A DNA stretch of 64,000 nucleotides from Xanthobacteraceae bacterium (GTDB taxonomy: Bacteria > Pseudomonadota > Alphaproteobacteria > Rhizobiales > Xanthobacteraceae), in the NCBI GenBank assembly GCA_023954195.1, contig JAMLIK010000001.1:496001-560000 (forward strand), read 5' to 3'. How positions within the stretch are numbered: position 1 is the first letter of the stretch; each line of letters starts with the position of its first letter. Below, one piece after another: positions 14,547 to 27,529 of this stretch. The notes below the pieces were generated by a model, which was not told the origin of the DNA, did no database searches, and saw only the letters and a list, made by a program, of their open reading frames with translations. The position numbers and the translations under genes are program-made.

Positions 14547-14601
14547 TCGCTTGGGTCGCCCGAAATGGCTGATATCCCGCATAAGGATTAGCCATCAAGA
14601 T

Positions 14602-14629
14602 CCGGTATTCTCGCGGGAATCCGGTTTTT
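14602..14629 (+). terminator. Probable rho-independent terminator of ndvB
   Basis: A CCGG/ATTC stem with one bulge, a short loop, and GAATCCGG is followed directly by five T residues. It lies 55 bp after the ndvB stop. Confidence 0.55.
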
Positions 14630-14761
14630 CCACGACGCGAGGCCATCGCTCGCCGGCTCGGGCGACGGCAGTTCCGATTCGGTCTGAACGGGGCTGGGGA
14701 TTTTTGCTTCGACGCGTTTTCCTCGTACGAACCGGTATCCACTTCGCTCGAAAACGCTCTA

Positions 14762-14790
14762 TTGACCCACGCGGGTCCGTTCCCTACACA
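14762..14790 (+). promoter_or_regulatory. Sigma-70-type promoter of tRNA-Lys
   Basis: TTGACC at 14762-14767 and TACACA at 14785-14790 are separated by exactly 17 bp, ending 10 bp before the first base of the tRNA. Placement and spacing fit a stable-RNA promoter. Confidence 0.65.
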
Positions 14791-14800
14791 GCCCCCACGT

Positions 14801-14876
14801 GAGCGCGTAGCTCAGCCGGTAGAGCACGTGACTTTTAATCATGGGGTCGAGGGTTCGAGTCCCTCCGCGCTCACCA
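14801..14876 (+). tRNA. tRNA-Lys (anticodon UUU)
   Basis: This is a complete 76-nt cloverleaf. The acceptor stem GAGCGCG pairs with CGCGCTC, followed by discriminator A and an encoded CCA. The anticodon loop CTTTTAA gives UUU, and the T arm contains GGTTCGAGTCC. Its 3' 45 bases are duplicated exactly at 25410-25454, so the present gene is a chromosome/element hybrid restored on integration. It remains functional by structure. Confidence 0.96.
14832..14876 (+). repeat. attL: 45-bp direct repeat within the tRNA-Lys 3' half
   Basis: It runs from the anticodon loop to CCA and is identical to 25410-25454. It marks the left junction of the integrated element, with the integrase gene starting its stop end 58 bp away. 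Bases on either side of the repeat differ between the two copies, defining its limits. Confidence 0.93.
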
Positions 14877-14933
14877 ATGATATCAATCACTTAGCTTGTG
14901 GACAGTATGTCATTCCGACACGCTGTCACTTGC

Positions 14934-16145
14934 TCATTCCGACGCATTCCCCTTCTTTGTTCTGAAATCTCGGCGCTTCCGAGCGCCCTCTACTCTCTGA
15001 GTCTTGCTGGCTTGCACGTATCTGAGCATCGCCGCCGTGGTCAGATGACCGCTCAATGCTCTGATTTGCGCATCCGTTAGATTGGCTTCCGCGCCTTCCG
15101 TGTTGCCGCCGTGGCGAAGTCCCATGAACTTCACTTCGTCGGGTATGTCGGCAGCCTTCCGCACCTTCGCAACCGCCTTCGCGAAAGAAAACCGGTCCGG
15201 CCACGGCAATATCAACTTTTTGAACCTGTCGGGCTTGTCCTTCATGATGATAAGCGTCCCACGACGCTCCGCCTTATCTAGGCGCTCCATCAATTCAGGC
15301 CACAACGCCGAACCGTCAACATCGTAAAGCGGTGTGTCTACGGTCTCCCCGGTCTTATGGTGGAAGATGCGAGCACAGTTCGGTGCATCCGCCGGTTTGA
15401 TGTGGCCCCATGTCAGGCGGCCGATAATGTCGGTTTCGCGCTGCAACCAGAAGAAAGCCAACATGGCGGCGGTGCCGAGCGATGGCTCGCCCCGCTCATC
15501 GGCCTTGGCGACGAACTTCATCAAGTCATCGTACTGGAAAAGTCGTGTCGGCTTGGCCTTGTAAGTCAGCCCCATTTTCCCGAAGGGGTTTTCGACGGGC
15601 ACCCTAGCCGTTTCCGAGCGGCGCGCTGTATTCCATGCGCGGCTGCAAACCCTCATCGCCAAGATGGCTGTTCTGGTCCGCTCCTTGCCGTCCTTGTTAA
15701 CCCGCACCTTCTCGTAAAGCTTGTCAGCGACACCGGGGGTTATGCTTTTCAACCCGATGACGCCGAGCCGCCTGCCATCGGTCAGGGTCACGTCTGACAC
15801 TAGCGCCAGCATTCGGTCGTATGAACTTCGGGTTTCGGCGGGGAGCTTCGTATAGCGCGGCGAACGCTTGTAGATGGAAACGAGCCAATCGAAGGTGCCG
15901 GTCTTGGCGATTCCCGGCTCTGTCGGCTCATCTGAGCTTGTCCGCCATGCGTGGTAATGCGGATTGAGAACCGTATCGCAACGAGCCTTGGCGGCTCCGT
16001 AGTCGGTCCCTAGCGCCTCTGCGGCGACCGGACATCCCGCCTTCTTCGCTCGTGTAGGCGGTGCCCAATAGTAAGAAACCAGCCCAGACGCCAGCCTTTT
16101 TGCTGTCATCAGGTCGGGCCATCCGGCTGGTTTCTTTTGGCGCAT
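14934..16145 (-). CDS. int: Tyrosine recombinase / integrase
   Basis: This 403-residue site-specific recombinase is positioned at the tRNA end of the element and transcribed toward it. The C-terminal catalytic domain (about 190-395) shows the first arginine in LQRETDIIGRLTW, the GLRHGG box, and LSGHLTTAAMLRYV, supplying the late His and the tyrosine nucleophile. The His of the usual H-x-L-R-H box is replaced by Met. The N-terminal part (about 1-180) would include arm-binding and SAM-like core-binding regions. Its ATG overlaps the stop of the preceding small gene as TGATG, so the two are translationally coupled. Confidence 0.93.
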   Translation of the reverse strand: MRQKKPAGWPDLMTAKRLASGLVSYYWAPPTRAKKAGCPVAAEALGTDYGAAKARCDTVLNPHYHAWRTSSDEPTEPGIAKTGTFDWLVSIYKRSPRYTKLPAETRSSYDRMLALVSDVTLTDGRRLGVIGLKSITPGVADKLYEKVRVNKDGKERTRTAILAMRVCSRAWNTARRSETARVPVENPFGKMGLTYKAKPTRLFQYDDLMKFVAKADERGEPSLGTAAMLAFFWLQRETDIIGRLTWGHIKPADAPNCARIFHHKTGETVDTPLYDVDGSALWPELMERLDKAERRGTLIIMKDKPDRFKKLILPWPDRFSFAKAVAKVRKAADIPDEVKFMGLRHGGNTEGAEANLTDAQIRALSGHLTTAAMLRYVQASKTQRVEGARKRRDFRTKKGNASE

Positions 16146-16324
16146 CAGAGCAGTTCAGCGATGTTTTCCGGCTCCGCCTCAATAGGCTGAATCGGCATCG
16201 GCGGTTCAAACACGGCTGCACCGTTCGGCTGCAAGGTCACACGAAACGGCACCTTCTCACGCTGACAGGCGCGGATGATACGCTGGACGTCGGCCTGGTT
16301 AACGTTGGATTTCCTACGCGGCAT
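16145..16324 (-). CDS. Small integrase-coupled protein, possible recombination directionality or regulatory factor
   Basis: This is a 59-residue protein with a basic start (MPRRKSNVNQ), a short helix-rich core (DVQRIIRACQREKVPFRVTL) and an acidic Pro-rich tail. The ATG at 16324 follows AGGTGAG at ideal distance, and the stop overlaps the integrase start (TGATG). Co-transcription with int and divergence from an Arc-type repressor suggest a role in excision or its control. I recognise no excisionase fold, so the function is inference. Confidence 0.75.
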   Translation of the reverse strand: MPRRKSNVNQADVQRIIRACQREKVPFRVTLQPNGAAVFEPPMPIQPIEAEPENIAELL

Positions 16325-16391
16325 TAACTCACCTCTTGACAGTTCCTTAAGTATCGATATGCCATAATGGCACCGAAAGGTCAAGGAAATT
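16325..16391. promoter_or_regulatory. Divergent promoter/operator between the int operon and the Arc-like repressor
   Basis: This 67-bp spacer carries TTGACA at 16336-16341 reading rightward and a perfect palindrome TGCCATAATGGCA at 16360-16372 (6-bp arms, one central base). Such a dyad between a ribbon-helix-helix gene and the integrase operon is a likely operator where the Arc-like protein controls both directions. Binding is not shown. Confidence 0.55.
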
Positions 16392-16724
16392 ATGTCCGAG
16401 GGGTCAGCAGTGGCAAAACAATCAGATAGTATCCACGATAGAGACCGAATTATCGTCCGCCTACCTGACGGAATGCGGGACCGATTAGCCGCGCTTGCCG
16501 AGTCTAATGGGCGGTCGATGACGGCCGAAGTCGTTGCGGCACTTGAGCAGCATTTAACCGGACCAAGCCGGATGGACGCCATCGAGGAAGAGCTAGAGAA
16601 ACACAAGCAGCTACTTGATATTGTTGATGTTCTCTACAATGTCGGCGGCGACTTAGAGAGTGCTGTGATTGAACTGCAAGAGCAGGTATTCGGCGGGCAG
16701 CGGCTGCCGCGCGTCCTGAAGTGA
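16392..16724 (+). CDS. Arc-family ribbon-helix-helix DNA-binding protein
   Basis: This 110-residue protein has an N-terminal RHH domain at about residues 17-56: a beta strand RIIVRLPDGM, then helices with LAALAESNGRSMTAEVVAALEQHL, the pattern of phage P22 Arc. The C-terminal half (about 60-100) is heptad-like and may oligomerise. It is the only rightward gene in the left part of the element and is divergent from the int operon, the usual place for a lysogeny-type repressor. The ATG at 16392 follows AAGGAAA. Confidence 0.85.
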   Translation: MSEGSAVAKQSDSIHDRDRIIVRLPDGMRDRLAALAESNGRSMTAEVVAALEQHLTGPSRMDAIEEELEKHKQLLDIVDVLYNVGGDLESAVIELQEQVFGGQRLPRVLK

Positions 16725-16769
16725 AGCCTGCTTCGGTCGATTCCGGTTGCCTAGGCCGGTTCCCGTCAC

Positions 16770-17297
16770 TTAGGGTTGCGGGAACAAGGGAGGGTTAAAT
16801 GAATGACTGGTTGCGAAAAGGCGCGCGAACCGCTGACGGTCGTCGTCTTGCTTGGCGCGGATGCGGGCGCGGGCACCGGCATAGGCGTCATCTAGCATTA
16901 CTTCGCCAGATAAGACCTGTTCTGCAACCGACCGCGAATCTGCAAGGACGGTACGAGCATATGATAGTCGCTGGCTCGAAAACCCTATTGTTTCAGTAGC
17001 CTTTTTTCCTCGCCCGCCCCTCTCCGGCTCAGGATAAATCATCGCCGTAGCCATCGCGCGCTGACCGCTACTCATATGCCGACGATTAACATTGACGGAG
17101 AGGATGAACTCTTTCGGGTCGCGGTCTTCGATGCTGGTGAAGGAAGGTTCAACTCCGGCGATCTCACAAGCCTTGAGGCGGTTGCGTCCATCGATAATGA
17201 CATCCTTGCCGTCTACTTTACCGACGACTATTGGATGCACGAGTCCGTTCGCCTTGATGTCTTCCGCAAGAGTGTTGAGTTCTTCATCCGACATCAT
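16770..17297 (-). CDS. ParB N-terminal domain (ParB/Srx-like) protein
   Basis: The 175-residue product matches the ParB nuclease/CTPase-like fold at about 1-75: SDEELNTLAEDIKANGLVHP, IIDGRNRLKAC and NVNRRHMSSGQRAMA. A helical region follows (about 85-160). There is no ParA partner. The start is uncertain. The ATG at 17297 has no Shine-Dalgarno, and the open frame continues upstream for 15 codons to a TGA, through residues that resemble the family. A 23-bp perfect inverted repeat lies just upstream. The role could be partition, packaging accessory or regulation; none is proven. Confidence 0.8.
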   Translation of the reverse strand: MMSDEELNTLAEDIKANGLVHPIVVGKVDGKDVIIDGRNRLKACEIAGVEPSFTSIEDRDPKEFILSVNVNRRHMSSGQRAMATAMIYPEPERGGRGKKATETIGFSSQRLSYARTVLADSRSVAEQVLSGEVMLDDAYAGARARIRAKQDDDRQRFARLFATSHSFNPPLFPQP

Positions 17298-17311
17298 TGG
17301 GAACCCGGCTA

Positions 17312-17334
17312 AAAGATTTACCGAGTAAATCTTT
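17312..17334. repeat. Perfect 23-bp palindrome upstream of the ParB-like gene
   Basis: Ten-base arms (AAAGATTTAC and GTAAATCTTT on the minus strand) flank a three-base centre, and one more T follows. It lies 15 bp upstream of the ParB-domain start codon and after the portal operon. It could be an AT-rich terminator of the head operon or a protein-binding site such as a centromere-like or operator sequence. Confidence 0.7.
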
Positions 17335-17384
17335 CCTTGCGCTCACCCCGCAATCGCCGGGGTCCGCACCCATCAACGAAATGT

Positions 17385-17486
17385 TCATCCCCCATTCGGC
17401 GGGACCAGCCCCGTCCGGGTGAAGGTCACGTCATGTCCGACTCTATCGATGGCGGCTTTCGCCCGATTGGCTGCGGCCTGGTTCAT
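17385..17486 (-). CDS. 33-residue ORF coupled to portal, possible remnant of a head-tail joining protein
   Basis: The reading frame starts MNQAAANRAKAAIDRVG and stops after 33 codons. Its ATG overlaps the portal stop as ATGA, as expected for a real next gene in this operon. The sequence looks like the first residues of a head completion or head-tail joining protein, cut short. Its own stop overlaps another ATG (17388), opening a 34-codon frame that ends at 17284. This may be the scar left where a tail module was lost. Confidence 0.4.
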   Translation of the reverse strand: MNQAAANRAKAAIDRVGHDVTFTRTGLVPPNGG

Positions 17487-18544
17487 GGCTTCGACCAATC
17501 CAGCATTGCGAGCGCGGCCTTTGCATCAACACCGGCTTCCTTGGCCTGAGCGAGACCCTGCACCAAGGTCGCAAAGGCGCGAGCACTGCCACCGGCATCA
17601 AAGGCCTGGGTTGGCCCCATGGTATCGATGCTGACAGCACCGCCGAGCTTTTCGGTGCATTCTTCGGCAATGAGTCCGCCGATAGGCTGTAGCGTCCATT
17701 GGGCAAGGTGACGCTGCGCTTCCCGCACAAGCGGCCCCTGAGCGGCATCAACGAACAGGCTGGGTAAGACGCCGAAGGCGGCACAAATCGCCCCACGCGC
17801 CTCCCTGAGCGATTCCACGGCCATGCTGCGCTCTAAGTCTGGGGTAAGGTCTTGCGGCTTCCAATCAACCTGCGGCTGAGGTCCACCGGCTGCCGAAACC
17901 GTGACGGATTCTCGCAACAGGACGCGACCACGTTGGCCTCGGAAGGACCGGCCCAAAGTCTCGTTATTCGTTTCGGGTGACTCCGGAAACGGGACAACCT
18001 GACTGCCGAGCGGGGCCAATTCGAACACTTCCGCCAATGCCGATTCCACGGCGTTTAGAAGCCCGCTGGTAAGGCTGGCGCGCTTCAAGGGTGCTGTGCC
18101 GTAGTACGGAGCCGCAGCATCACAGCCCGTTCTAATGTGCAGGATTTCGCCTGCCAAAGCGGTTCGGGAAGTGCCGCCACCAGCTTCAGGAATCGAGATG
18201 CGATAAGCGACGGGTTTGCCGTTCTTCGTCCGCAAATCCCAGTCGGAGCAAGGGACCAGGCTGTCCCCTTCAATCAAGAAAACAGATTCACCACGCAAGG
18301 CGAGCGAACGTCCAATCAGCGCCAGCATCGAGGGCGGCAACATGTCCGTGCCCTTGACTTCGGCAAGCGACAAGCCGCCTTCCCAAAGGGACACGCACGA
18401 CTGAGCCGTGGCCGTCAATTCAGCGATGCCACGCCGTCCGCTGATGTAGGCTTCTCTCGCCTGCATAATCTCAGCGGTGAATCCACTCATCGCTGACCGC
18501 TTTTCGACGGGAGCCGAGCGGCGAAATAAATCCATGATTCCCAT
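17483..18544 (-). CDS. Phage portal protein (HK97 family)
   Basis: The product is 353 residues. The portal is the dodecameric ring at one capsid vertex through which DNA enters and leaves. Family features are the N-terminal MGIMDLFRR, an early GGLSLAEVKG strand, ALRGESVFLIE, AGEILHIRTG, and the stem/wing region ending in the helix with EARGAICAAFGVLPSLF and REAQRHLAQWTLQPIGGLI. It is shorter than many HK97 portals. The ATG at 18544 shares a base with the connector stop (TAATG), so translation is probably coupled. A TTG-type extension to 18604 exists but is antisupported by this overlap. Confidence 0.9.
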   Translation of the reverse strand: MGIMDLFRRSAPVEKRSAMSGFTAEIMQAREAYISGRRGIAELTATAQSCVSLWEGGLSLAEVKGTDMLPPSMLALIGRSLALRGESVFLIEGDSLVPCSDWDLRTKNGKPVAYRISIPEAGGGTSRTALAGEILHIRTGCDAAAPYYGTAPLKRASLTSGLLNAVESALAEVFELAPLGSQVVPFPESPETNNETLGRSFRGQRGRVLLRESVTVSAAGGPQPQVDWKPQDLTPDLERSMAVESLREARGAICAAFGVLPSLFVDAAQGPLVREAQRHLAQWTLQPIGGLIAEECTEKLGGAVSIDTMGPTQAFDAGGSARAFATLVQGLAQAKEAGVDAKAALAMLDWSKP

Positions 18545-19077
18545 TAGCGATACCCCCGCAGTAGGTCGGCTGCACCGGAGTTTTGGAGCGCCCGCGCCAT
18601 CCATGAAGGCGAGCGGCTGACGGACACGGATTCGATATCGGTGACGTCAACACGTTCCGATGCAGCGCCAGCCGTGCCGGGGTCCTGCGCCAGATATTCG
18701 GCTAGACGCTTCACAGCTTCGGTGACAGCGGCCGGGATATCTGCATCGTCATCACCCACGGTTGCGGTGAATCGATACGGACCAGCGCCGGTCAACCAGA
18801 CGCCATCGAAAGCGGTCGGCTCAAGGTCGACATCCTCATAGTATCCGGCAGCAAAGATTTCAGCCCTGGTGATGGTCGCAGGCTGCAACGGCGGCGACCA
18901 CTCGCCCGGACCTTCGACAATCCAAACCACGCTACGCTCGCTGTAGCGGTGCGACGTGTAGGCTTCGATGCGAGCCCATGCGACATCAGCGAGCGCCGCA
19001 GCGGCGGTAGACAGCCCGCTAGGAGCATCTGGATAGGCTTCCGGGATGTTTTCGAGTTGCTTCAAAGTGACGGTCAT
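18544..19077 (-). CDS. Head-tail connector protein (gp6-like)
   Basis: This 177-residue protein is positioned between protease and portal. It has an N-terminal helical start (TVTLKQLENIPEAYP), a central helix with ADVAWARIEAYTSHRYSERSV, a beta-rich middle (PLQPATITRAEIFAAGY), and a final helix region (IPAAVTEAVKRLAEYLAQD). These are features of the HK97 gp6 family that sits under the portal. Start and stop overlap neighbouring genes as TAATG. Connectors normally seat the tail, so its retention suggests the particle is built to accept one. Confidence 0.82.
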   Translation of the reverse strand: MTVTLKQLENIPEAYPDAPSGLSTAAAALADVAWARIEAYTSHRYSERSVVWIVEGPGEWSPPLQPATITRAEIFAAGYYEDVDLEPTAFDGVWLTGAGPYRFTATVGDDDADIPAAVTEAVKRLAEYLAQDPGTAGAASERVDVTDIESVSVSRSPSWMARALQNSGAADLLRGYR

Positions 19078-19625
19078 TAGACCCTCCAGCGCCGGAGCGC
19101 GTCCTGCATATTTCCCCACTTTTGCGCGTTTTCTGGATTCCAGTTTCGCGCCTCGATTTGAGCGGTGGGATAAGCCGGCTTCGTCACCGCTGAAAATTCG
19201 GTGGCAATGGCGGCTGTCACGGTGCGAAGAACACCATTGCCGCGACGTTCAATCCGTTCGCCATTCGGCGCGACACGGAAGCCGGGAGACAGCCCGCGAA
19301 TGAGTCCGGCCGCATTTGCCGCCAGAAAGTCCTGAGCCCATGACGTCCGGTTTTCGATTGTCGCCTCAATCTCAAGCGCGGAGTCGGTATCGCGGAGCTG
19401 AAGCGAACCAGCCGCGCGTGATGCAAGCGGTTTCGCCATGTCGTGCTGAAACAACAGCATGACGTCGCTGCCATCATTTACAGACTGGCGAAAGGCACCG
19501 GGGGCAAAGACTTCACGCCTGCCGGGTGCAAGTTCGGTTTCTGCATTGTACGGAAACGAAGCACGAAGGCGGGTTGTCCCGCCTTCGCTTCGAATCTCAA
19601 TGCTCGCTGCGGAGCCGTACAGCAT
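19077..19625 (-). CDS. HK97-family prohead protease
   Basis: This is a 182-residue serine protease of the Caudovirales prohead family, which removes capsid delta domains and matures the head. The catalytic His is in LLFQHDMAKP (His61) and the Ser in GLSPGF (Ser113), with the EATIENRTSWAQD segment between. It directly follows the capsid gene with a four-base gap, an order reversed from canonical HK97 (protease then capsid). Its stop overlaps the connector start (TAATG). Confidence 0.92.
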   Translation of the reverse strand: MLYGSAASIEIRSEGGTTRLRASFPYNAETELAPGRREVFAPGAFRQSVNDGSDVMLLFQHDMAKPLASRAAGSLQLRDTDSALEIEATIENRTSWAQDFLAANAAGLIRGLSPGFRVAPNGERIERRGNGVLRTVTAAIATEFSAVTKPAYPTAQIEARNWNPENAQKWGNMQDALRRWRV

Positions 19626-19629
19626 TGGC

Positions 19630-20895
19630 TTAGCTCGCGGAGCTTTGAACGCCGATCAGGATCTGAAGCTGCTCAGCCCGACTGACAGTCACGTCCATTG
19701 TTGCCAACGCGGTTAAACGTAGCCCGCCCGACGCCGCGTCCGAATACGGGTCGCGAATGACGTCGATGGAACCGAATGTCGCAACAAAAATAGGAGAGAC
19801 CCCGTTTACGCTTGTCGTGAGCAAGGCTTTGCTAGCTTTCGGCGTGCCGGTCGGAGCGGCCAACGCATTCGACGACATCACCGGCTTGCCGACGTTTTTC
19901 ACGAGTCGGTCCCATTCGGACACCGCCGTCGACGTAATCAGCGTGTCGTCCATGAAGTCATAGACTTCTGGACGAATGAGCAGATTGACCGAACCCGGAC
20001 CATTGGCAGCGTTCGCCGTCATGAAGCGAACCACCGCACCACGGAACGCCTTCCACGACGCCGCAGCAGTCACCGCCGTCGAAGTGATGCCATAGCTACC
20101 GACCAGAACGCCCGCAGGCTCACCGCCGGTGCCCGCACCCTGAAACACCGCCTTGTCCATGCCAACGGCTAGACAGCCGTTCATGTCGCGGCGGATAGCG
20201 GCTTCAAGGCCAGCACCGGATTGCAGCAGCGCCTTCCGGGTAATCGACATGGTGATTCCGAAGGTGTTGTTCGGCCCCACGCTACGTTCTGCGGTGCTGT
20301 ACACGGTCGGTCCCGCCACGGAGCCGCCTTCACTCGCCGCCCAGCCGCCGGTCACGGACGAATTGACAATCGGATATTCGTTCGAGCCGTGGTCAATGTT
20401 GATGAAGCGAGCACCCATCGAACCGGCTGCCGACTTGGCAAAGATACGGTCAATGATGGGAGCCGTCACCACCGGCGAAGGAACGCCGCTGGCAACGGTT
20501 TCGCCGGCGCGGGTTTCAATATCCAGCGCGGCATAAGGCACCGGAACGCCCTTGTAGGCACCATGCGAGCGCATTTCAGCGACAACTTCGGCAGTCTCAC
20601 CCGAAAGCGCCCGCTGCGAGTTGTAGAAGTCCACAACCTGACGAACTTCGAACTTGCTGACCAGGTCGGCGTATTCTTTGCCGTCGCGGGTTTCCAGTTC
20701 GGCACCGGCTTCGCGGCGTTCGCTGTCTTCGGCAATCAGCGCGGCACGGAAACGGGTTTCTCCGGTACGGTATTCGAGGTCCATCGCCTCAATCTGACGA
20801 ACCTCCTCTTCGGTCGGCTTTTCCTTGCCGACAAGCGCGGCGAGCGCCTGACGGATTTCGCTTTGACGACGGGAGATTTTTACTGACTCAAGCAT
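19630..20895 (-). CDS. HK97-type major capsid protein with N-terminal scaffold domain
   Basis: This is a 421-residue capsid precursor. Residues about 1-105 are charged and helical (the delta/scaffold region cleaved by the prohead protease). The mature fold follows with SPVVTAPIIDRI, FINIDHGSNEYPIV, the E-loop region and the P-domain, ending in IDVIRDPYSDAASGGLRLTALATMDVTVSRAEQLQIL. The start at 20895 follows AAGGAAA; an upstream extension to 21021 reads through non-homologous sequence. It is the clearest evidence that the element makes its own heads. Confidence 0.95.
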   Translation of the reverse strand: MLESVKISRRQSEIRQALAALVGKEKPTEEEVRQIEAMDLEYRTGETRFRAALIAEDSERREAGAELETRDGKEYADLVSKFEVRQVVDFYNSQRALSGETAEVVAEMRSHGAYKGVPVPYAALDIETRAGETVASGVPSPVVTAPIIDRIFAKSAAGSMGARFINIDHGSNEYPIVNSSVTGGWAASEGGSVAGPTVYSTAERSVGPNNTFGITMSITRKALLQSGAGLEAAIRRDMNGCLAVGMDKAVFQGAGTGGEPAGVLVGSYGITSTAVTAAASWKAFRGAVVRFMTANAANGPGSVNLLIRPEVYDFMDDTLITSTAVSEWDRLVKNVGKPVMSSNALAAPTGTPKASKALLTTSVNGVSPIFVATFGSIDVIRDPYSDAASGGLRLTALATMDVTVSRAEQLQILIGVQSSAS

Positions 20896-20909
20896 GTAGT
20901 TTTCCTTGG

Positions 20910-21215
20910 TTAGGGTTTCGCCATGGCGGCGACTAATGCGCGCCAGGCTTGGCGCTTTGGGTCCGGCGGTGACCGGAGTCCAATCTCGGTGATGGTCTTG
21001 CGGGAGTGGTCCCGGGCGCACAAAGTTTGGAGATTGCTCAAAGTGAGCGCCAATTCAGGGTGAGTCCGAACCGGCTTGATATGGTCGACTTCCAGCCGAT
21101 GACGTGAGCCGCATTGGACGCATTTCCAGCCATCGCGGCGCTTCGCTTCGAGCCGGACAACCTGCCATGCTTTCGTTCGCCGAATTGCTGCCGAGTGGCG
21201 GAAGTAATCCTTCAC
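20910..21215 (-). CDS. HNH endonuclease of the packaging module
   Basis: This 101-residue HNH protein has CVQCG, LEVDHIKPV and LSNLQTLCARDHSRKT, giving the two zinc-type Cys and the H-N-H active-site pattern. HNH proteins next to large terminase in HK97-like phages assist cos cleavage during packaging. The GTG at 21215 overlaps the terminase TGA (GTGA), which decides the start. It lies between terminase and capsid. Confidence 0.9.
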   Translation of the reverse strand: MKDYFRHSAAIRRTKAWQVVRLEAKRRDGWKCVQCGSRHRLEVDHIKPVRTHPELALTLSNLQTLCARDHSRKTITEIGLRSPPDPKRQAWRALVAAMAKP

Positions 21216-22744
21216 ACCCAAACCGGAGCCCTTGCCTTACGAACCGGCAGCGCCGTCATACGGTCGCCTTGTGCGACGGCAAGCACCGTCGAAACCGCAG
21301 CATCGATTCTGCCGAGCGAACGCGACTTTGCCATTTTGTGATTCTGGAACGGGTCAACCAAGGTGATTGCATCCGCAAACGCGGAGCGAAGTAATAGCGA
21401 TGCCGTCGTCTTAATCTTGCCGTCGAATAGCGAGCGGCGGAACCGTTCGATATCTTCGGAACCGTCTTTCCAGCCCATGCCGCGCGAAACGAACTGCACC
21501 CGCAAACCAGCGTTCTGCATCGCCTCGCTAAATTCAGCGAAGCGGAAACGGTCGCCAACGATACAAGCAATCGGATAGCCGTCAGCAAGCCGCGCTAGGT
21601 CCGCCAGCCATGGCCCCGCTGGAACTGTATTTTCACCCATGACGCGGAGTTCGCCACGCTCATGCATTCGGCTGTAGCGGTCGCCGACGCCATCGGCGGC
21701 ACCGCGATCGATAAGGTTCGGTTTCGCGGCAAAGGTGCCATAGGATTCGAGCCGCCCTGTTTCCGGGAAATAGAACGATGCTGCCGACATGGAGCGCGAA
21801 CCGCCAAGGTCGACGCCAAGGATGCAGATGCCTTTTCGTGGTGGTAGCTGTTCGGGTGAGACTTCAGCCGATAGCCATTCGTCGACGGTCACCAGGACCG
21901 ACCTATCATCGGAACTGACACGCTCGTTTCGATTCAGGTTGCGAAAGGACGATAGAGCCGAACCGCCGCGAGCGATGGCGCGTCGTGCCTGCGCCTGCAA
22001 CCATTCGAGACTGGCACCGATGCCTTCGGTGGCACCCGGATTCGCGATAAGCAGGGACTCGACATCATCGGCAGGAAGGCCGAACGCCGGTCTATGTTCC
22101 TGCACGTAGGTTCCGGGCGGAGGCTCATCTAACCAGCGGCTAAAGGTGTTGGCGTCGTCCGGTGCGGAGGTGCTGATAATTAGAGCTTTACCGTTGCGCT
22201 TTCCGAGACCCGAAAGGATAGCGTTTTCAAGCTCGTCGCCTTTTTCCGGGGACCAGGCAGACCTCTCATCAAGCACGGCGAGCGTGCTGCTACCGCCGAG
22301 TACGGACTTGCCATCGGCAGCAATACAGCGCGCCAGCCCGCCGCCATTGCCGAGGTATTCCACCTCCAGCCTTGAACCGCGACGGATGATGAACTTGTCG
22401 CGTTCTCGCTTCGGCAGCCCTTCGACGAATCCAACCAGATAGTTGAATGCGACCTTGGCTTGGTCCCGGTTCCGGGCGGCAAAAAGGATATCGCGCTTTG
22501 GCTGCTTATCGATGACTCCCATCAGAGACATCAGCGAGATTCCCGAGGAAAGTGCCGTTTTCGCATTGCCGCGACCGATGCTAAGCACCGCGACCATGTT
22601 CGCCGGGTCCAGCGCACCACGGACAAATCGCTTCTGAAATTCGGCCAAGCGGAGGCGCTTGCCCGCAAGCGGGCCTTCTGGAATCCGTAGCGTTTCGAGA
22701 AACGCGAAGGCTGTTTCCACCGTGGATTTTTCTATTTTCGGCAT
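21212..22744 (-). CDS. Phage terminase large subunit
   Basis: The 510-residue packaging motor carries Walker A SIGRGNAKT (55-63), Walker B TLAVLDE (154-160) and a C-terminal RNase H-like nuclease with acidic Asp311 (GVDLGGSRS) and Asp397 (VGDRFRF). It would pump element DNA into the prohead and cut it. I chose the ATG at 22744; a TTG 36 bp upstream is possible, and neither has a clear ribosome site. The intact ATPase and nuclease residues argue for function. Confidence 0.94.
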   Translation of the reverse strand: MPKIEKSTVETAFAFLETLRIPEGPLAGKRLRLAEFQKRFVRGALDPANMVAVLSIGRGNAKTALSSGISLMSLMGVIDKQPKRDILFAARNRDQAKVAFNYLVGFVEGLPKRERDKFIIRRGSRLEVEYLGNGGGLARCIAADGKSVLGGSSTLAVLDERSAWSPEKGDELENAILSGLGKRNGKALIISTSAPDDANTFSRWLDEPPPGTYVQEHRPAFGLPADDVESLLIANPGATEGIGASLEWLQAQARRAIARGGSALSSFRNLNRNERVSSDDRSVLVTVDEWLSAEVSPEQLPPRKGICILGVDLGGSRSMSAASFYFPETGRLESYGTFAAKPNLIDRGAADGVGDRYSRMHERGELRVMGENTVPAGPWLADLARLADGYPIACIVGDRFRFAEFSEAMQNAGLRVQFVSRGMGWKDGSEDIERFRRSLFDGKIKTTASLLLRSAFADAITLVDPFQNHKMAKSRSLGRIDAAVSTVLAVAQGDRMTALPVRKARAPVWV

Positions 22745-22791
22745 CTCGGGAGAGAGAAAGAAGAAGCCCCCATGCGGCAACGCGCCCCCAA

Positions 22792-22804
22792 ACCTTTTTA
22801 AGGT
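22792..22804. promoter_or_regulatory. Palindrome upstream of terminase, candidate operator of the head operon
   Basis: ACCTTTTTAAGGT is a perfect 5-bp-arm dyad with three central T. It lies between the terminator at 22838-22868 and the terminase start, where the promoter of the head operon must be. Regulatory function is inference. Confidence 0.35.
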
Positions 22805-22837
22805 ATTGGGACCATTACGCTTTCAGGTAGGGATATG

Positions 22838-22868
22838 AAAAAGGACGGCAGCGCCTGGCTTGCCGTCC
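22838..22868 (-). terminator. Rho-independent terminator between early and head modules
   Basis: On the minus strand GGACGGCA, a 10-base loop and TGCCGTCC are followed by TTTTT. It would end transcripts from the small-terminase-like and 118-residue genes before the terminase gene, giving two separate leftward units. Confidence 0.75.
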
Positions 22869-22982
22869 AAAGTATTCCGAGTACGGGGAACAATCGACGC
22901 AGCGTCAAAGCTTGCGCCGATACTCGTTTCCATTACCTGAACGAGTCACAGTTGTCAACCGAATACTTACGAACACGCCAAT

Positions 22983-23339
22983 TCATGCGCGTTTGCGTAT
23001 TCGTTTACTTGGTTTGGCCTTGCGAGACTTGGCCTTCCGCGCCTTCTCGGCGGCCTTGGCCTCTTCCTCTTCGATAATAACCGCGATGGCGTCACGGTTG
23101 CTTGTTGTGAGCCATGTAGACTGCGGGGACAACGCGACATCGAGCGAGGTCAGCGCGCGGACGGGACACGTCGCATAAACCAGCCTGTCATCTAGGATGC
23201 GTACCAATGTTGCCATGTGGCCGACGACATCCACGACCTTGAACACGACGCGGCCGACCATGGCGACATCACCAACGCCTAGCCTGCGCGGTGCAGGCGG
23301 GAATAGGGAGCGCAGGTCAACGTCGTCGGGGGCTATCAT
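22983..23339 (-). CDS. Unknown protein coupled to the small-terminase-like gene
   Basis: The product is 118 residues. A beta-rich N-terminal domain (RRLGVGDVAMVGRVVFKVVD; DDRLVYATCPVRAL) is followed by an acidic patch (IIEEEEAKAAEKA) and a very basic tail (KSRKAKPSKRIRKRA) that could bind nucleic acid. The ATG overlaps the upstream stop as ATGA. No family recognised. Its place before terminase suggests a packaging or regulatory role. Confidence 0.65.
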   Translation of the reverse strand: MIAPDDVDLRSLFPPAPRRLGVGDVAMVGRVVFKVVDVVGHMATLVRILDDRLVYATCPVRALTSLDVALSPQSTWLTTSNRDAIAVIIEEEEAKAAEKARKAKSRKAKPSKRIRKRA

Positions 23340-24469
23340 GCGATGAAGTCCAAGTTAGCTACACGGTCGAGCATGGTGGTGGCAGCATCATCGAACACCT
23401 TTTCATCCAGCGACCGCTTATCGCGGCCCTTGTGCTGGCGTCCGGTGCGGTTGATGTGGCGGCTGGCGGCTTTCCTCGCCATCGCGGCATCGATGCTTTC
23501 CCCGCGTTCGAGCGCGGCAAGGATTAAGTCTTGCGTGACGTCTTCGCGGTCGATTGCATCCAGCCAACCGGGAACCGCTTGACGCGCGGCGCGGTACATC
23601 CCGTTGCGGTTGAGTTGCCGCTCGCGTCGTCCGGCCTCAATGAGTTTGCGCTCGGCGTTGGAAACGGAACGCTCGATTCCAACGGTGATGTTTCGTTTCG
23701 TTAGGACTTGGTCGAGCCGCTGGCGCAGCTTTGGATTATCCAATGCGCGGCGACGAAACGTCGATAGCGCGGGAGCCTCGACAATGATGGAGTCGTAAGC
23801 GTTATCCACGGCACCAATGGCGGCAACGCGCGGCGCAAACTCGATAAGGTCGGAGTCTGTCCACTCACAAGCCTTGCCGCGTTTGGTCGCCGGGTTGGCC
23901 TCACGGCGCAATGTCGCCTCTTGGTACTGGCGACGGCGCTCCGGGTCCGCATTGAGCACGGCCCGAAAGGGTTGGTATGATGGAAACTTAGGATCCGACT
24001 TCAGCGCCTCGCGGTACAACATGCCGCCTTCGACAAGCCGCAGAATCTCATCAAAGTATTTCAGGACGGCGGTGCGACCAGGACGATTCATCCCGGTTGC
24101 GCGGCGAGCCGCCATCACCTCTGCCTTAATGTCGGCGTCGTAGGTGCAGGCCCCCTTTACGGTGGACGCTGATGGCTTTTCCGGTAGCGCCGCAGCGATT
24201 GCCTTCCACGATTTCCCCTCACCACGGAGGCGCTTAATCAAGCCTAGATGACGTTTGACGATGGTAGCCCCGTTGCGGACTCCGCTGGCCGCCTTTGCCT
24301 CGCGGAGCCGTGTCCGATGTTCGGGGCTGTGCGCGCAAAACGACGCGAACTTCAAATCAGTCGGGAACCGCGAATCGCTCTGACATGCCGCGCGTATCGT
24401 CATGCCGGATGCTATCAAAGCAATGATGGCGTCGAAGTGGACGCGCGACGGTGACGGCGGACGTTTCAT
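23336..24469 (-). CDS. Repeated helix-turn-helix protein, probable small-terminase-like DNA-recognition protein
   Basis: The 377-residue protein holds three related homeodomain-like modules at about 11-60, 73-122 and 138-190. Each has a helix, a G-x-s/t turn, a recognition helix and a 'DP-E-R-R' style helix, as in phage small terminases. The C-terminal part (about 300-350) contains AIDREDVTQDLILAALERGES, recalling sigma-factor region 2. It lies upstream of terminase in the same direction. I infer recognition of the packaging site; a transcription activator is the main alternative. Confidence 0.65.
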   Translation of the reverse strand: MKRPPSPSRVHFDAIIALIASGMTIRAACQSDSRFPTDLKFASFCAHSPEHRTRLREAKAASGVRNGATIVKRHLGLIKRLRGEGKSWKAIAAALPEKPSASTVKGACTYDADIKAEVMAARRATGMNRPGRTAVLKYFDEILRLVEGGMLYREALKSDPKFPSYQPFRAVLNADPERRRQYQEATLRREANPATKRGKACEWTDSDLIEFAPRVAAIGAVDNAYDSIIVEAPALSTFRRRALDNPKLRQRLDQVLTKRNITVGIERSVSNAERKLIEAGRRERQLNRNGMYRAARQAVPGWLDAIDREDVTQDLILAALERGESIDAAMARKAASRHINRTGRQHKGRDKRSLDEKVFDDAATTMLDRVANLDFIA

Positions 24470-25046
24470 CGAGACTCAATCACAAGCAGGCATAGCTCCG
24501 CCCTTTCCCTCCCTCCGGTCTAGCCTCCCGGCCAACCAGTAGAGCCCCTAACCAAGGGGAGCCGACCAATCATGGCCAGCTAGGTACTCGGTACCCTTTC
24601 GCCGGTTGTCCGGCTCACTGAATTGTCCCTTCAGTGCCTCCGAGAGCTTTTTTGGGCGCTCCCGCATCAAAATTCGGTCGCGGTGGTCAGCCGCTTGACG
24701 AGTCTTGATGCCTTTCGACCCTCTGCCGTTAGGCTTACCGTGTGGTCGCTGGATGTAATGGGCACAACAGAGCCAGCTCTGATTTTGGAACGACCCAAGC
24801 ACCTCAACGGTGCCCCTTGTGGCGTGTCGCCTGCCAACCAGTGAAGTCACTGGCACCTGCGGTCATTCATCAACGGTTGCGCACACAATGGCTGCTTTTA
24901 CCCGGCGACGGGACATGGCCGAATCTCGACCCGACGCTATTGCGCTGGACGGCCAGTTGCGAACGATGGCGATGGCGGGACCTCCGAGCACCTTCACCAA
25001 GAGCGAGCACAACCAGCCGAACGCGGTGTTCGGTGTTGCGATGCTC
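24470..25046. other. Weakly coding stretch of the element
   Basis: These 577 bp have no strongly supported gene. A GTG-initiated leftward frame at 24548-24856 is listed separately. A rightward 80-codon frame at 24810-25052 is an alternative and is followed by a rightward terminator at 25262-25291. The promoter of the small-terminase-like gene should lie near 24470-24550. No clear boxes seen. Confidence 0.4.
24548..24856 (-). CDS. Hypothetical protein of the element
   Basis: This 102-residue frame starts at GTG with a poor ribosome site. It is basic, with Cys pair WLCCAHY and a C-terminal PDNRRKGTEYLAGHDW. No family recognised. Coding status is uncertain because rightward frames overlap it. 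Confidence 0.35.
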   Translation of the reverse strand: MPVTSLVGRRHATRGTVEVLGSFQNQSWLCCAHYIQRPHGKPNGRGSKGIKTRQAADHRDRILMRERPKKLSEALKGQFSEPDNRRKGTEYLAGHDWSAPLG

Positions 25047-25349
25047 CTATGAGGTGAAGGCTGCGGCGGCCTGAGCCCGCTTCGCGTAGGTGCCTAGGAT
25101 TGTGCCGTCTGCGGCAACGGCGATGTGGATGCCGGTCCGGGGTTCCAGCACGTCGCCAAGATAATTGCGGCCTACATAAACTGAGACTCTTGAAGTCGAC
25201 TCGTCCGCCGCGTATCTTGCTATTTGACGGCCCGCCAGAGCCTTCGAAGTTTTGCTACGAGCCCCGCCCTTCCCGGCGGGGTTTCGTTTTTGCGGGGTAT
25301 CTCCCCGCGATTTACGTTCCGACAAAGCGAAATTCTCCTTTTCGTTCAA
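25047..25349 (-). CDS. Hypothetical protein at the right end of the element
   Basis: The product is 100 residues. The basic N-terminal half (SRGDTPQKRNPAGKGGARSK) looks disordered. The C-terminal half (SVYVGRNYLGDVLEPRTGIH, then AVAADGTILGTYAKRAQAA) has a plausible small beta fold. The only upstream start is TTG at 25349, with no clear ribosome site, and an inverted GTTC-N7-GAAC lies across it at 25344-25358. A shorter form beginning near the conserved half is possible. Confidence 0.45.
   Translation of the reverse strand: MNEKENFALSERKSRGDTPQKRNPAGKGGARSKTSKALAGRQIARYAADESTSRVSVYVGRNYLGDVLEPRTGIHIAVAADGTILGTYAKRAQAAAAFTS
25262..25291 (+). terminator. Rightward rho-independent terminator near the right end
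   Basis: CCCCGCC, a short loop, GGCGGGG and then TTTCGTTTTT. It faces the right attachment site and would stop element transcripts from reading into the chromosome, although it lies antisense within the weak 25047-25349 frame. Confidence 0.55.
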
Positions 25350-25409
25350 TAAGCGAACAAAAAGGGAAACTGTCGGAATGGTGATTGACTCAGTTAGTGA
25401 GTTACTGGC

Positions 25410-25454
25410 CTTTTAATCATGGGGTCGAGGGTTCGAGTCCCTCCGCGCTCACCA
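25410..25454 (+). repeat. attR: 45-bp duplicate of the tRNA-Lys 3' end
   Basis: It is identical to 14832-14876 from the anticodon loop to CCA, but lacks the tRNA 5' half, so it is not a gene. It is the original chromosomal 3' end displaced by integration. Confidence 0.93.
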
Positions 25455-25618
25455 TTTCAAGGCGTTCCGGGGATTTTGATCCCGCCGCGTCGGAGCGGGC
25501 CGCCATGGTTACCGATTGTTGACGATCGGCCGCTACAAAGTCCATGCGGCGGTGCAGCAAATTTTGGACACATTGGTCCGGAATAAGCCGTCCATCACAT
25601 CATCGAGGATTTTGATTC

Positions 25619-25978
25619 ATGCGTTTTCGCCGCCGGCACGCTTGCCTTGGCCTTGCCGCCATCGCCGGCGCCGCCATTACCGCCGCGACCTCGGCCCAGG
25701 CCCAGACTCCTTATGACGGGCAATGGAGCGTCACCATCGTCACCAAATCCGGAAATTGCGAACCGACGGCGCAATACCCGCTCACCGTCAACGACGGCAA
25801 GATCACCGCGCCGGGCGCCGACATCTCGGGCCGGGTCGGACCCGCCGGGCTGGTCAAGGTTTCGTTCCAGGGCGCTTTCGCCAATGGCCAGTTGAGCGGC
25901 AATGCCGGCTCCGGCAAGTGGAACGGCGCCTCCGGCGGCATCCCGTGCAGCGGCAACTGGCAGGCGTCGCGTCAATAG
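25619..25978 (+). CDS. Small secreted protein
   Basis: This 119-residue protein has a signal peptide (basic MRFRRRH, hydrophobic core, cleavage near AQAQ at about 29). The mature part, about 90 residues, has a repetitive beta pattern (YDGQWSVTIVTKSGNCEP ... GRVGPAGLVKVSFQG ... GSGKWNGASGG) and two Cys that could pair. It resembles the next gene in layout, and both may be paralogues. No family named with certainty; export to the periplasm is predicted. Confidence 0.7.
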   Translation: MRFRRRHACLGLAAIAGAAITAATSAQAQTPYDGQWSVTIVTKSGNCEPTAQYPLTVNDGKITAPGADISGRVGPAGLVKVSFQGAFANGQLSGNAGSGKWNGASGGIPCSGNWQASRQ

Positions 25979-26032
25979 CCGGGCCATTTCCGTTCCGATT
26001 CGCTCAAAACGCTGTAAAGCAGGACCGATCAC

Positions 26033-26533
26033 ATGAACGCCGGGGCGACACGTCGAGGCCGGATTACGCGATGGGCCGTCGCGGCGGCAATGCTGCTGAG
26101 CGCCGGATCGTTGGCTGCGGCGCAGTCGCCGGGCGCGTTCACGGGCCTGGCAGGGGTGTGGTCCGGCAGCGGCACCGTCTCCCTCGACAACGGGCAGAGC
26201 GAGCGGATTCGCTGCCGCGCGACCTATGCCGTCAGCGCCGACGGCAACGGCCTCAACCAGACCCTGACCTGCGCCAGCGACAGCTATAAATTCGACCTCA
26301 GGAGCAACGTGATCGCCAAGGCCGGCGCGCTGTCCGGAACCTGGGGCGAACTGAGCCGCAACATCGGCGGCAATCTGCAAGGCAGCGCCCGCGGCGGCCA
26401 ATTCGATGTCACCGTCAGCGGCCCTTCCTTCACGGCCGACCTGTCGATGGTCACCACCGGCAACAGGCAGCGGGTGACCATTCGCTCCGGCGGCTCGTTC
26501 CGAACCGCCTCGATCTCGCTATCGCGCTCCTGA
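26033..26533 (+). CDS. Secreted protein of unknown function
   Basis: This 166-residue protein has a signal peptide (about 1-31, ending near AAAQS). The mature region is beta-rich with Gly/Ser turns (GVWSGSGTVSLDNGQSERIRC, TCASDSYKFDLRS, GTWGE, GNLQGSARGGQFDVTVSG) and two Cys about 20 residues apart. The pattern suggests a lipocalin-like or barrel-like periplasmic protein, but I recognise no assigned function. It follows a related-looking secreted protein by 54 bp. Confidence 0.7.
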   Translation: MNAGATRRGRITRWAVAAAMLLSAGSLAAAQSPGAFTGLAGVWSGSGTVSLDNGQSERIRCRATYAVSADGNGLNQTLTCASDSYKFDLRSNVIAKAGALSGTWGELSRNIGGNLQGSARGGQFDVTVSGPSFTADLSMVTTGNRQRVTIRSGGSFRTASISLSRS

Positions 26534-26656
26534 GCATACGGGGCGGCAACCACCTTCCGCGCATCCGCATTGAGCGGCCATCGACGGCGCGAGCGGGATC
26601 GCTATGATCGCGCCCCTGTCGTTCCCCGTCCCTCCTTGCCGCCACCGGTCCCGCCC

Positions 26657-27529
26657 ATGCCGCCTCAAGCCTCGACGTCGAAAGCCGCCCTATGGATGGC
26701 CGGCTGGCTCCTGCAATTGCTGGTGATCGCCATCGCGGGCCGCGAGGCGTTGCGCGAGTTGAGCGTTTTTCAGGTGATGGAAGTGCGCTCCGTGCTCGGT
26801 TTGATGCTGTTGCTGCCGCTGATCCATCGCGCCGGCGGGCTGGCGCGACTGCGCACCCGGCGCCCGCTCCAGCACGTCGTCCGCAATTTGGTGCATTACG
26901 CGGCGCAGCTCGGCTGGTTGCTGGCGCTGACGCTGACCCCGCTCGCCGAGGTCGTCGCCATCGAATTCACCACGCCGATCTGGACCGCGATCATGGCCGC
27001 GGTCTTTCTCGGCGAGCGCATGACTGGCGGCAAGGTTCTCGCCGTCGTGCTCGGGCTGCTCGGCGTCGTCATCATCGTCCGGCCGGGATTAAGCGGAGCC
27101 AGCATCGGACAACTTGTCGTGCTGCTCGCCGCGGTCGCCTTCGGCGTCTCGATCATCATGGTCAAGTCGCTGACCCGCACCGACACCACGCTTCAGATCA
27201 TTGTCTGGATGACGGTGGTGCAGTCGGTCATCGGGCTTGTCCCCGCCGTGGCGATGTGGACCTGGCCGGATGCGACAACATGGGGCTGGCTTGTCGTGGT
27301 GGCGTTCTGCGGCACATTTTCGCATTACTGCATGGCGCGGGCGATGCTGTACGCCGATGCGACCGTCGTGGTGCCGATGGACTTCCTTCGGGTTCCTCTG
27401 ACGGCGATCGCCGGCTGGCTGATCTACGCCGAACGCATCGACCTGCCGACGGTGCTGGGCGCGATCATCATCCTGGGCGGCAATTTTCTCAATCTTCGCA
27501 GTCCGGCGAGACCGCGCGCGGCGGCGTGA
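26657..27529 (+). CDS. EamA (DMT superfamily) transporter
   Basis: The 290-residue product has ten hydrophobic segments arranged as two EamA repeats (about 15-145 and 155-285), with the family sequence AIEFTTPIWTAIMAAVFLGER and a second-repeat counterpart PMDFLRVPLTAIAGWLIYAER. It acts in the inner membrane as an exporter of small metabolites; substrate unknown. The ATG at 26657 gives the normal length; an upstream frame from 26570 adds a Pro/Arg-rich leader unlike the family. Confidence 0.87.
   Translation: MPPQASTSKAALWMAGWLLQLLVIAIAGREALRELSVFQVMEVRSVLGLMLLLPLIHRAGGLARLRTRRPLQHVVRNLVHYAAQLGWLLALTLTPLAEVVAIEFTTPIWTAIMAAVFLGERMTGGKVLAVVLGLLGVVIIVRPGLSGASIGQLVVLLAAVAFGVSIIMVKSLTRTDTTLQIIVWMTVVQSVIGLVPAVAMWTWPDATTWGWLVVVAFCGTFSHYCMARAMLYADATVVVPMDFLRVPLTAIAGWLIYAERIDLPTVLGAIIILGGNFLNLRSPARPRAAA

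Follow-up and report, generated by a model that had tools for sequence, protein, structure and literature searches.

A candidate capsid-forming, tailless satellite at a tRNA-Lys gene of a Xanthobacteraceae bacterium and its relatives among the alphaproteobacteria

Capsid-forming phage-inducible islands (cf-PICIs) encode their own capsid, protease, portal, connector, TerL, TerS and HNH proteins and need a helper only for tails, as summarised in the available part of PMC10690885. AlpA and primase are listed among their signature genes in the accessible text of PMC10448857, and three published clades of cf-PICI capsids are cited in the available section of PMC11389934. The Mulch and Flayer satellites of Streptomyces phages are described, in the same part of PMC10690885, as carrying genes for packaging and capsid but no evident replicase, and one of them is believed to take its tail from the helper. 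The cf-PISP satellite-plasmids of Vibrio are episomal and, in the excerpt available of PMC13230959, encode heads and packaging functions but no tails. Searches of an open-access library listed no report of capsid-forming satellites from alphaproteobacteria; they covered neither subscription journals nor the primary literature on cf-PICIs, and novelty is unproven.

The window analysed here is a 64,000-nucleotide stretch of a Xanthobacteraceae bacterium (assembly GCA_023954195.1, contig JAMLIK010000001.1, positions 496,001 to 560,000). The element occupies window positions 14832-25454 (10,623 bp) between exact 45-bp direct repeats at 14832-14876 and 25410-25454, which are identical at 45/45 positions with a spacing of 10,578, as the first-pass annotation had stated. 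This att pair was the sole direct-repeat family of at least 20 bp within 13500-27000. The GC content of the element was 58.8%, against 0.63-0.70 in 1-kb blocks wholly outside it. An empty site was identified in the genus relative G072, which matched the joined flanks unbroken over the junction (query 328-845 of 845, 82%). Promoter-like sites (5 vs 3.3 in shuffles) and terminator-like sites (13 vs 11.5) were at about the shuffle level. The features, with their evidence, are:

14801..14876, plus strand: tRNA-Lys(TTT), the integration target (ARAGORN, Rfam); attL, 14832-14876, is its 3' part
14934..16145, minus strand: divergent tyrosine integrase, 403 aa (PF00589, E 0.0045, below the family cut-off)
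16145..16324, minus strand: 59-aa ORF overlapping the integrase start (from sequence; no family at E<0.01)
16392..16724, plus strand: Arc-like ribbon-helix-helix regulator (PF03869, E 2.6e-12)
16770..17297, minus strand: ParB_N-domain protein, 175 aa (PF02195, E 7e-6; phrog_21315, E 4.5e-16)
17483..18544, minus strand: portal protein, 353 aa (PF04860, E 2.4e-11 on the longer ORF 17483-18604; start from comparison with relatives)
18544..19077, minus strand: head-tail adaptor, 177 aa (phrog_442, E 6e-7 on ORF 18544-19119)
19077..19625, minus strand: prohead protease S78, 182 aa (PF04586, E 1.5e-22)
19630..20895, minus strand: HK97-fold major capsid protein, 421 aa (PF05065, E 3.4e-8 on ORF 19630-21021)
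20910..21221, minus strand: HNH endonuclease, 103 aa (PF01844, E 2.5e-10; phrog_144, E 5e-21)
21212..22744, minus strand: large terminase TerL, 510 aa (PF03354, PF20441 and phrog_9, E 1.5e-56, on ORF 21212-22780)
22983..23339, minus strand: 118-aa ORF before TerL (no family above cut-off; homologue in L108, E 2e-17)
23336..24469, minus strand: 377-aa protein with an Sf6-type TerS domain (PF20901 Sf6_terminase, E 1e-9; phrog_1482, E 1.7e-14)
25047..25349, minus strand: 100-aa ORF, a doubtful gene (no family)
25410..25454, plus strand: attR, an exact 45-bp copy of attL (repeat search)

The integrase, Arc, HNH, TerL, capsid, protease, connector and portal genes listed in the first-pass annotation were all recovered, the integrase by a weak match, but the TerS-like 377-aa ORF and the ParB_N gene had been missed. 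The overlapping genes and unbroken frames it described were also seen: the reading frames are open, and overlaps of 1-10 bases occur at the integrase/59-aa ORF, portal/adaptor, adaptor/protease, HNH/TerL and 118-aa/377-aa ORF boundaries. The capsid start, formerly put at 21021, was moved by conservation to 20895, where an MLxS-type start is common to nearly all relatives; the capsid of L088, for example, is a 421-aa open frame. By our reading, the apparent internal stops in capsid matches would come from alignment upstream of the true start. The TerL start at 22744 was chosen by comparison with relatives.

A profile of the capsid, searched against solved-structure sequences, matched the siphophage capsid 8gta (E 1.7e-8), with a weak second match. 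The predicted capsid model had a middling mean pLDDT of 71.7 and its fold matched HK97-fold shells, which supports an HK97 fold and nothing beyond. The TerS assignment is based on one Sf6-type domain within the 377-aa protein, and among the best-listed families of the pooled scans described below a TerS family was recognised in the window element alone. The 118-aa ORF was considered as head closure Hc1 and rejected on a negative profile comparison. The ParB_N protein scored 26.4 bits with PF02195, whose cut-off is 26.3, and the Arc-like gene lies on the opposite strand to the element's other genes. A PHROG search gave no match for the integrase; weak tblastn matches to it were obtained in L010, L199 and L200.

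Scans of the element's ORFs with Pfam and PHROG returned no tail, lysis or primase family, in agreement with the earlier statement that tail, lysis and replication genes are absent, and no match to AlpA. Sister elements carry head-closure Hc1 genes, matched by 12/131 pooled family ORFs, though none was found in the window element by profile. The pool consisted of 131 ORFs, other than head and integrase genes, from the 20 att-bounded elements, and was drawn from 151 ORFs outside head-gene matches, with the window element's ORFs included; 20 presumed integrases, judged by place and size, were left out together with window:17076-17312, L010:14074-14277, L011:6179-6403 and L195:6689-6889, and window:16770-17297, L010:6655-7419, L010:14182-14697 and L011:5454-6140 were added. 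In this pool the best 25 of 126 PHROG families and the best 25 of 47 Pfam families included none for a tail tube, tape measure or fibre. Similarly, 83 of the 89 ORFs called on ten longer viral contigs (leaving out L026:11509-11856, L176:13647-14666, L021:13829-14896, L124:13278-14444, L142:12931-14058 and L020:13103-13609) gave no tail tube or tape measure among the best 25 of 132 PHROG families; the 'tail completion or Neck1' families phrog_169 and phrog_5 matched two ORFs each.

The 20 att-bounded elements, the window's included, span 9,754-11,750 bp (mean 10,744, sd 492). Overlap between the repeat and a tRNA gene was seen in 18/20 (Ser 10, Lys 2, Glu 2, Asn 2, Arg 1, Met 1), the repeat at the tRNA having been chosen where there were several short flanking ones (L196, L197, L198, L200 and others); several att repeats of the family are short, at 14-17 bp. 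The order TerL-HNH-capsid-protease-portal was found in all 20 elements, and the adaptor was detected in 17 with the window's sequence as the only query. Nineteen of the 20 have full-length TerL, capsid, protease and portal genes; the exception, the truncated L199, is evidence that family members do decay. The L192 capsid was counted as full length, and a 47-aa length for it was rejected as a script error because a 445-aa open frame without stops is present there. Across four pairs, dN/dS lay at 0.046-0.298 in 23/23 gene comparisons. Pfam AlpA was matched by 6/131 pooled ORFs, primase genes occur in sisters such as L082 (DUF5906, phrog_1156) and L084 (Prim-Pol), and other accessory genes also vary between sister elements. 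The first-pass annotation was right that the window element lacks recognisable AlpA and primase, but this does not account for its compactness, since such genes occur in relatives of equal size. As shown by this comparison of sequences, the family combines a near-constant size and one conserved head and packaging block with varied integration, regulation and replication genes.

The distribution is patchy, with 10/397 genomes of the order carrying the family. Five of the 398 genomes sampled across the phylum (own genome included; class make-up not given) had a capsid match at E<=1e-40, all of them from the same class, which fits the lineage-specific nature proposed earlier. In the TerL tree, 25 family members, chosen out of 60 extracted, formed one clade with support 100/100 against six phages and four host-genome TerLs. 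In a search of 50,697 phage records, the top-ranked match to TerL had 29.6% identity over 92% of the query, Rhizobium phage 16-3 gave a shorter TerL match (34.8% over 45%), the best capsid match reached 28.3% over 56% (three records) and the portal had no match. In the six compared phages no more than one gene separates TerL from the portal behind it, whereas the family has the portal last.

We consider that the element is an integrated capsid-forming satellite, which would package its DNA in a small head of its own and depend on a helper for the tail, and we place the probability of this reading at about 0.8. The result upholds the proposal of a capsid-encoding tailless satellite, with a helper step that we infer. 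The integrase would insert the element at tRNA-Lys, where the att repeats and the empty site were observed. With a tailed helper phage active, the portal, adaptor, protease and capsid would build a small HK97-type head, and TerL, the TerS-like protein and the HNH nuclease, as judged from their gene families, would package the genome of ~10.6 kb. The element's portal and adaptor would then connect the filled head to a tail made by the helper, and the element probably spreads by borrowing the tails of other phages. Replication and lysis are probably supplied by the helper or the host, since no such gene was recognised. A helper with a matching connector, as previously suggested, did not emerge: portal and adaptor profiles gave no match at E<=1 in eleven host-genome stretches. 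Two candidate tail loci, C4 ~280-299 kb and C1 ~982-996 kb, lie elsewhere in that genome.

The element would work like a cf-PICI, although we do not file it as one. It shares the capsid, maturation protease, portal and head-tail connector genes, TerL, a TerS-like gene and HNH, att sites with a weakly matched integrase, and the lack of a tail family among the scanned ORFs; its sisters include AlpA-like and primase genes, whereas the window element has no recognised AlpA and no recognised primase or Pri-Rep. Like Mulch and Flayer it has packaging and capsid genes and no recognised replication gene; those satellites, likened here by description and not by sequence, differ in that, by the available account, their hosts are actinobacteria, their helpers are virulent and they have direct terminal repeats.

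The shortage of recognised genes might also mean that mobility has gone. Because AlpA, primase and head closure, present in sisters, are not recognisable in the window element, it could be less complete than they are, and a satellite without mobility, kept for another use such as interference with phages, would also fit the very divergent integrase. This is unlikely, as the att copies are perfect over 45 bp, the head genes are intact and under purifying selection, and accessory genes differ between sisters as well. A complete temperate phage was rejected, the tail, lysis and replication modules not being recognised between the att sites. A defective prophage that lost these genes and is now decaying has the ordinary HK97-type phage families of the head genes, the absence of recognised lysis or replication genes and the truncated L199 in its favour. 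However, separate deletions would hardly leave 20 repeat-bounded elements of 9.75-11.75 kb, 18 of them at tRNA genes, with four intact head-gene frames in 19/20 and dN/dS below 0.3 in every comparison, and both the portal-last order and the separate TerL clade set the family apart from the compared phages; we regard decay as quite improbable. The first-pass annotation had taken a tail module in relatives, or widespread head-gene frameshifts, as pointers to decay; the best-listed families of the pooled ORFs held no tail module, and the head genes were as described above.

Gene transfer agents (GTAs) are equipped with tail genes of their own and are not known to have an integrase. The element resembles the Rhodobacter-type GTA in having an HK97-type head in alphaproteobacteria, GTA capsid chains rank 14, 15, 19 and 29 among the structural matches of the capsid model, and the host genome has an apparent GTA-like cluster elsewhere (C1 ~982-996 kb), with a tail tube (PF06199) and a 1306-aa frame with PF13550. 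In contrast, the element is a self-contained 10.6 kb that includes HNH and TerS-like genes as well as an integrase and att repeats; its distribution is patchy, and no tail genes were recognised in it. That it is a GTA or a piece of one is therefore highly improbable.

The satellite reading suggests that some ~10-kb 'incomplete prophages' of alphaproteobacteria are complete satellites. At least 566 of at least 600 candidate stretches in a viral-contig collection encode a relative of the element's capsid, which indicates that self-encapsidating, tail-dependent satellites are common in the class, outside the main cf-PICI hosts named in PMC10803314. The near-constant size, with varied replication and regulation genes, provides a basis for asking which functions are the minimum for a head-making satellite. 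A more far-reaching idea, which we hold to be very unlikely, is an alphaproteobacteria-specific radiation of ~10-kb capsid-forming satellites that arose independently of the three published cf-PICI clades; the members of this radiation may attach to tails from chromosomal GTA-like clusters in addition to those of phages. If true, docking on GTA-like tails would remove the need for a co-resident helper phage and would explain the restriction to the class.

Two scans yielded 121 distinct viral contigs with TerL or capsid, with median lengths of 9.7 and 9.8 kb, a maximum of 26.8 kb and none above 30 kb; these lengths partly reflect prophage-boundary prediction and fragmentation. Terminal direct repeats of 56-144 bp were found in 3/121 contigs (five were covered in part), giving units of 9.4-10.1 kb, and we read these three as circular from their ends. 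The circular relatives without an integrase (L047, L048 and L055) recall the Vibrio satellite-plasmids, as far as the available excerpt describes them, whereas the window element is integrated at tRNA-Lys.

The best explanation for the element at positions 14832-25454, to which we assign a probability of about 0.8, is a satellite that forms its own capsid and belongs to a compact lineage in alphaproteobacteria. The window corresponds to C1:496001-560000 of a 4.18 Mb assembly, and the element within it is 10,623 bp long, bounded by exact 45-bp repeats at 14832-14876 and 25410-25454, the left of which forms the 3' part of tRNA-Lys(TTT). Its GC content is 58.8%, against 63-70% in the 1-kb blocks lying wholly outside it. 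Read leftwards from the right end, the gene order begins with an ORF of 100 aa that is doubtful as a gene, followed by a 377-aa protein carrying a TerS domain of the Sf6 type and an ORF of 118 aa. The head and packaging genes come next (TerL, HNH, capsid, prohead protease, head-tail adaptor and portal), and then a ParB_N protein, an ORF of 59 aa and an integrase of divergent sequence; the gene for an Arc-like regulator lies on the strand opposite to the others. Tail, lysis and primase families gave no match among the scanned ORFs of the element.

The occurrence of relatives was assessed by capsid searches at several taxonomic levels. In the family, 17 of 391 genomes matched at E<=0.001, and matches with E below 1e-140 were found at eight places in seven of these genomes, own included. 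The capsid profile was matched at E<=1e-60 in 10 of the 397 genomes searched from the order and in 2 of 385 from a class sample, and at E<=1e-40 in 5 of 398 from a phylum sample, own being counted in each; all five belong to the same class, the share of the 398 lying outside that class not being given. Short peptide patterns recovered seven loci from a species-genome collection; the record titles name alphaproteobacterial groups for six of them and 'Proteobacteria bacterium' for the seventh. Two plasmid records matched, one from Pseudorhodobacter turbinis (62.5% identical) and a distant one from Acinetobacter (23.3%). The former, NZ_CP039965.1 (L206), is a 1.58-Mb replicon on which the relative spans 13.8 kb between 55-bp repeats at tRNA-Cys, with two integrase matches.

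Ends were sought in 20 distinct elements with adequate flanks (the window element, L082-L088, L010, L011 and L191-L200). Direct repeats were present at both sides in all 20 and overlapped a tRNA gene in 18, several of these repeats being just 14-17 bp long and the tRNA repeat being taken where chance short repeats also occurred. The spans ranged from 9,754 to 11,750 bp (mean 10,744, sd 492). The order TerL, HNH, capsid, protease, portal was shared by all 20 elements, and the adaptor, searched with that of the window element, was detected in 17. Full-length TerL, capsid, protease and portal were found in 19 of the 20, and dN/dS was 0.046-0.298 (Nei-Gojobori, 23 gene comparisons in four pairs, with some dS values close to saturation). 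Together, these two results point to head genes that are under purifying selection rather than decaying. One element, L199, encodes truncated products (TerL 345, capsid 299 and portal 251 aa), and decay therefore does occur within the family.

Outside the head block, few genes of the window element were matched among the compared loci: the integrase (weakly) and Arc had matches in five loci each, the 118-aa ORF had a match in a single locus, and the ParB and 377-aa proteins had none. What the elements have in common is thus the head block, while their remaining genes vary from one to another. Individual scans identified an integrase, an AlpA/excisionase-like HTH protein (phrog_66, E 0.001), a DUF5906 primase-type protein and the head closure protein Hc1 in L082, a Prim-Pol/AAA protein in L084, AAA/primase-helicase-type proteins in L083 and L085, and a replication-initiation O-like protein with Hc1 in L088. 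The 131 non-head, non-integrase ORFs of the 20 elements were also scanned as a pool, and the best 25 of 126 PHROG and 25 of 47 Pfam families were considered. These included Hc1 (12 ORFs), the excisionase/regulator families phrog_66 (n=9) and phrog_2790 (n=6), Pfam AlpA (n=6), primases and helicases, and a TerS family matched by the window's own 377-aa protein only; tail tube, tape measure and fibre families were absent from them.

TerL matched 45 viral contigs and the capsid profile at least 80, and a capsid relative was encoded in at least 566 of 600 candidate stretches of the viral-contig collection. Among the matches listed there were 121 distinct contigs, with a median length of 9.7 kb in one of the two scans and 9.8 kb in the other; one exceeded 20 kb and none 30 kb. 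Terminal direct repeats were found in three of the 121 (L047, L048 and L055; five partial contigs were left out), consistent with circular or terminally redundant molecules of 9.4-10.1 kb. The integrase profile matched 18 of 22 contigs tested and gave no match in these three, which were among the 22 and are possibly episomal or non-integrating forms of the relatives. In 83 ORFs of ten longer contigs, two 'tail completion or Neck1' families had two ORF matches each, a tally that does not assign matches to individual contigs; tail tube and tape measure were absent from the best 25 of 132 families. From these sequence matches, some family members may carry an extended neck.

The family is distant from the phages compared. 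Against 50,697 phage records, TerL matched 89, all below 60% identity; the best-ranked match shared 29.6% identity across 92% of the query, and Rhizobium phage 16-3 TerL was 34.8% identical over 45%. The capsid matched three records (best 28.3% over 56%) and the portal none. In a midpoint-rooted TerL tree, where CRP-811 forms a very long branch, 25 family members formed one clade (100/100) apart from six phages and four host-genome TerLs. In the six fetched phages the portal comes directly after TerL or one gene further on, unlike in the element family, where it is last. The predicted capsid structure (pLDDT 71.7) matched encapsulins, the capsid of marine siphophage vB_Dshs-R4C and gene transfer agent (GTA) capsids, and the model thus supports an HK97 fold.

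Capsid-forming phage-inducible islands (cf-PICIs) are treated in PMC10690885, PMC10448857, PMC10803314, PMC13230959, PMC11389934 and PMC12846349. In the portions of these sources considered here, cf-PICIs share with the window element the head, packaging and integration functions and the lack of a tail; unlike them, the element carries no AlpA or primase, both of which occur among its sister elements. The element works like a cf-PICI, within a family that has cf-PICI-like members, but because AlpA and primase are missing it is not filed as a strict cf-PICI. The main host groups named in the part of PMC10803314 considered include no alphaproteobacterial one, though the primary cf-PICI literature may already include this lineage.

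The satellite would be packaged, use the tail of a helper and be transferred. Tape-measure matches in the host genome were located on contigs C2, C4 and C1, and the C1 match contains two internal stops; a tail-tube match lay on C1, and PF13550 matched frames of >1,300 aa on C1 and C4. Judging by gene sizes and order, the C1 cluster at ~982-996 kb (L203) looks GTA-like and the C4 cluster at ~280-299 kb (L204) looks like a second tail-bearing cluster; both are candidate tail donors. No portal or adaptor similarity was found between the element and the searched host-genome stretches.

The joined flanks of the element were searched against eight genus genomes, own included. In G072 they matched as one piece over the junction (query 328-845 of 845, 82% identity), which is an empty site. 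The tRNA and right flank lay ~16 kb apart in G112 and ~19 kb apart in G093; therefore, the tRNA-Lys site is used by other insertions. These occupy G112 C9 at ~203-219 kb and G093 C26 at ~54.8-74 kb, and the two fetched stretches covering or inside the gaps (L201, L202) had no match to window-element genes.

Two further elements were observed in the host genome. The one at tRNA-Ser (C1:339985-355908; L092, L093) is 15.9 kb long with 17-bp repeats and encodes an integrase, a DNA-topoisomerase-family protein (phrog_6247), portal, protease, capsid, adaptor, TerS, TerL and Hc1. No tail family was matched among its scanned ORFs, and it may be a further satellite of the capsid-forming type, from a separate lineage. 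The one at tRNA-Asn (C1:388479-406458; L094, L095) is 18.0 kb long with exact 45-bp repeats and encodes an integrase, a ParB-like protein, a topoisomerase-family protein, a 376-aa TerS-like protein, portal, protease, capsid and TerL; in addition, a central tail fibre J family was matched once, weakly. Its 376-aa protein is distantly similar to the 377-aa protein of the window element (E 4e-8).
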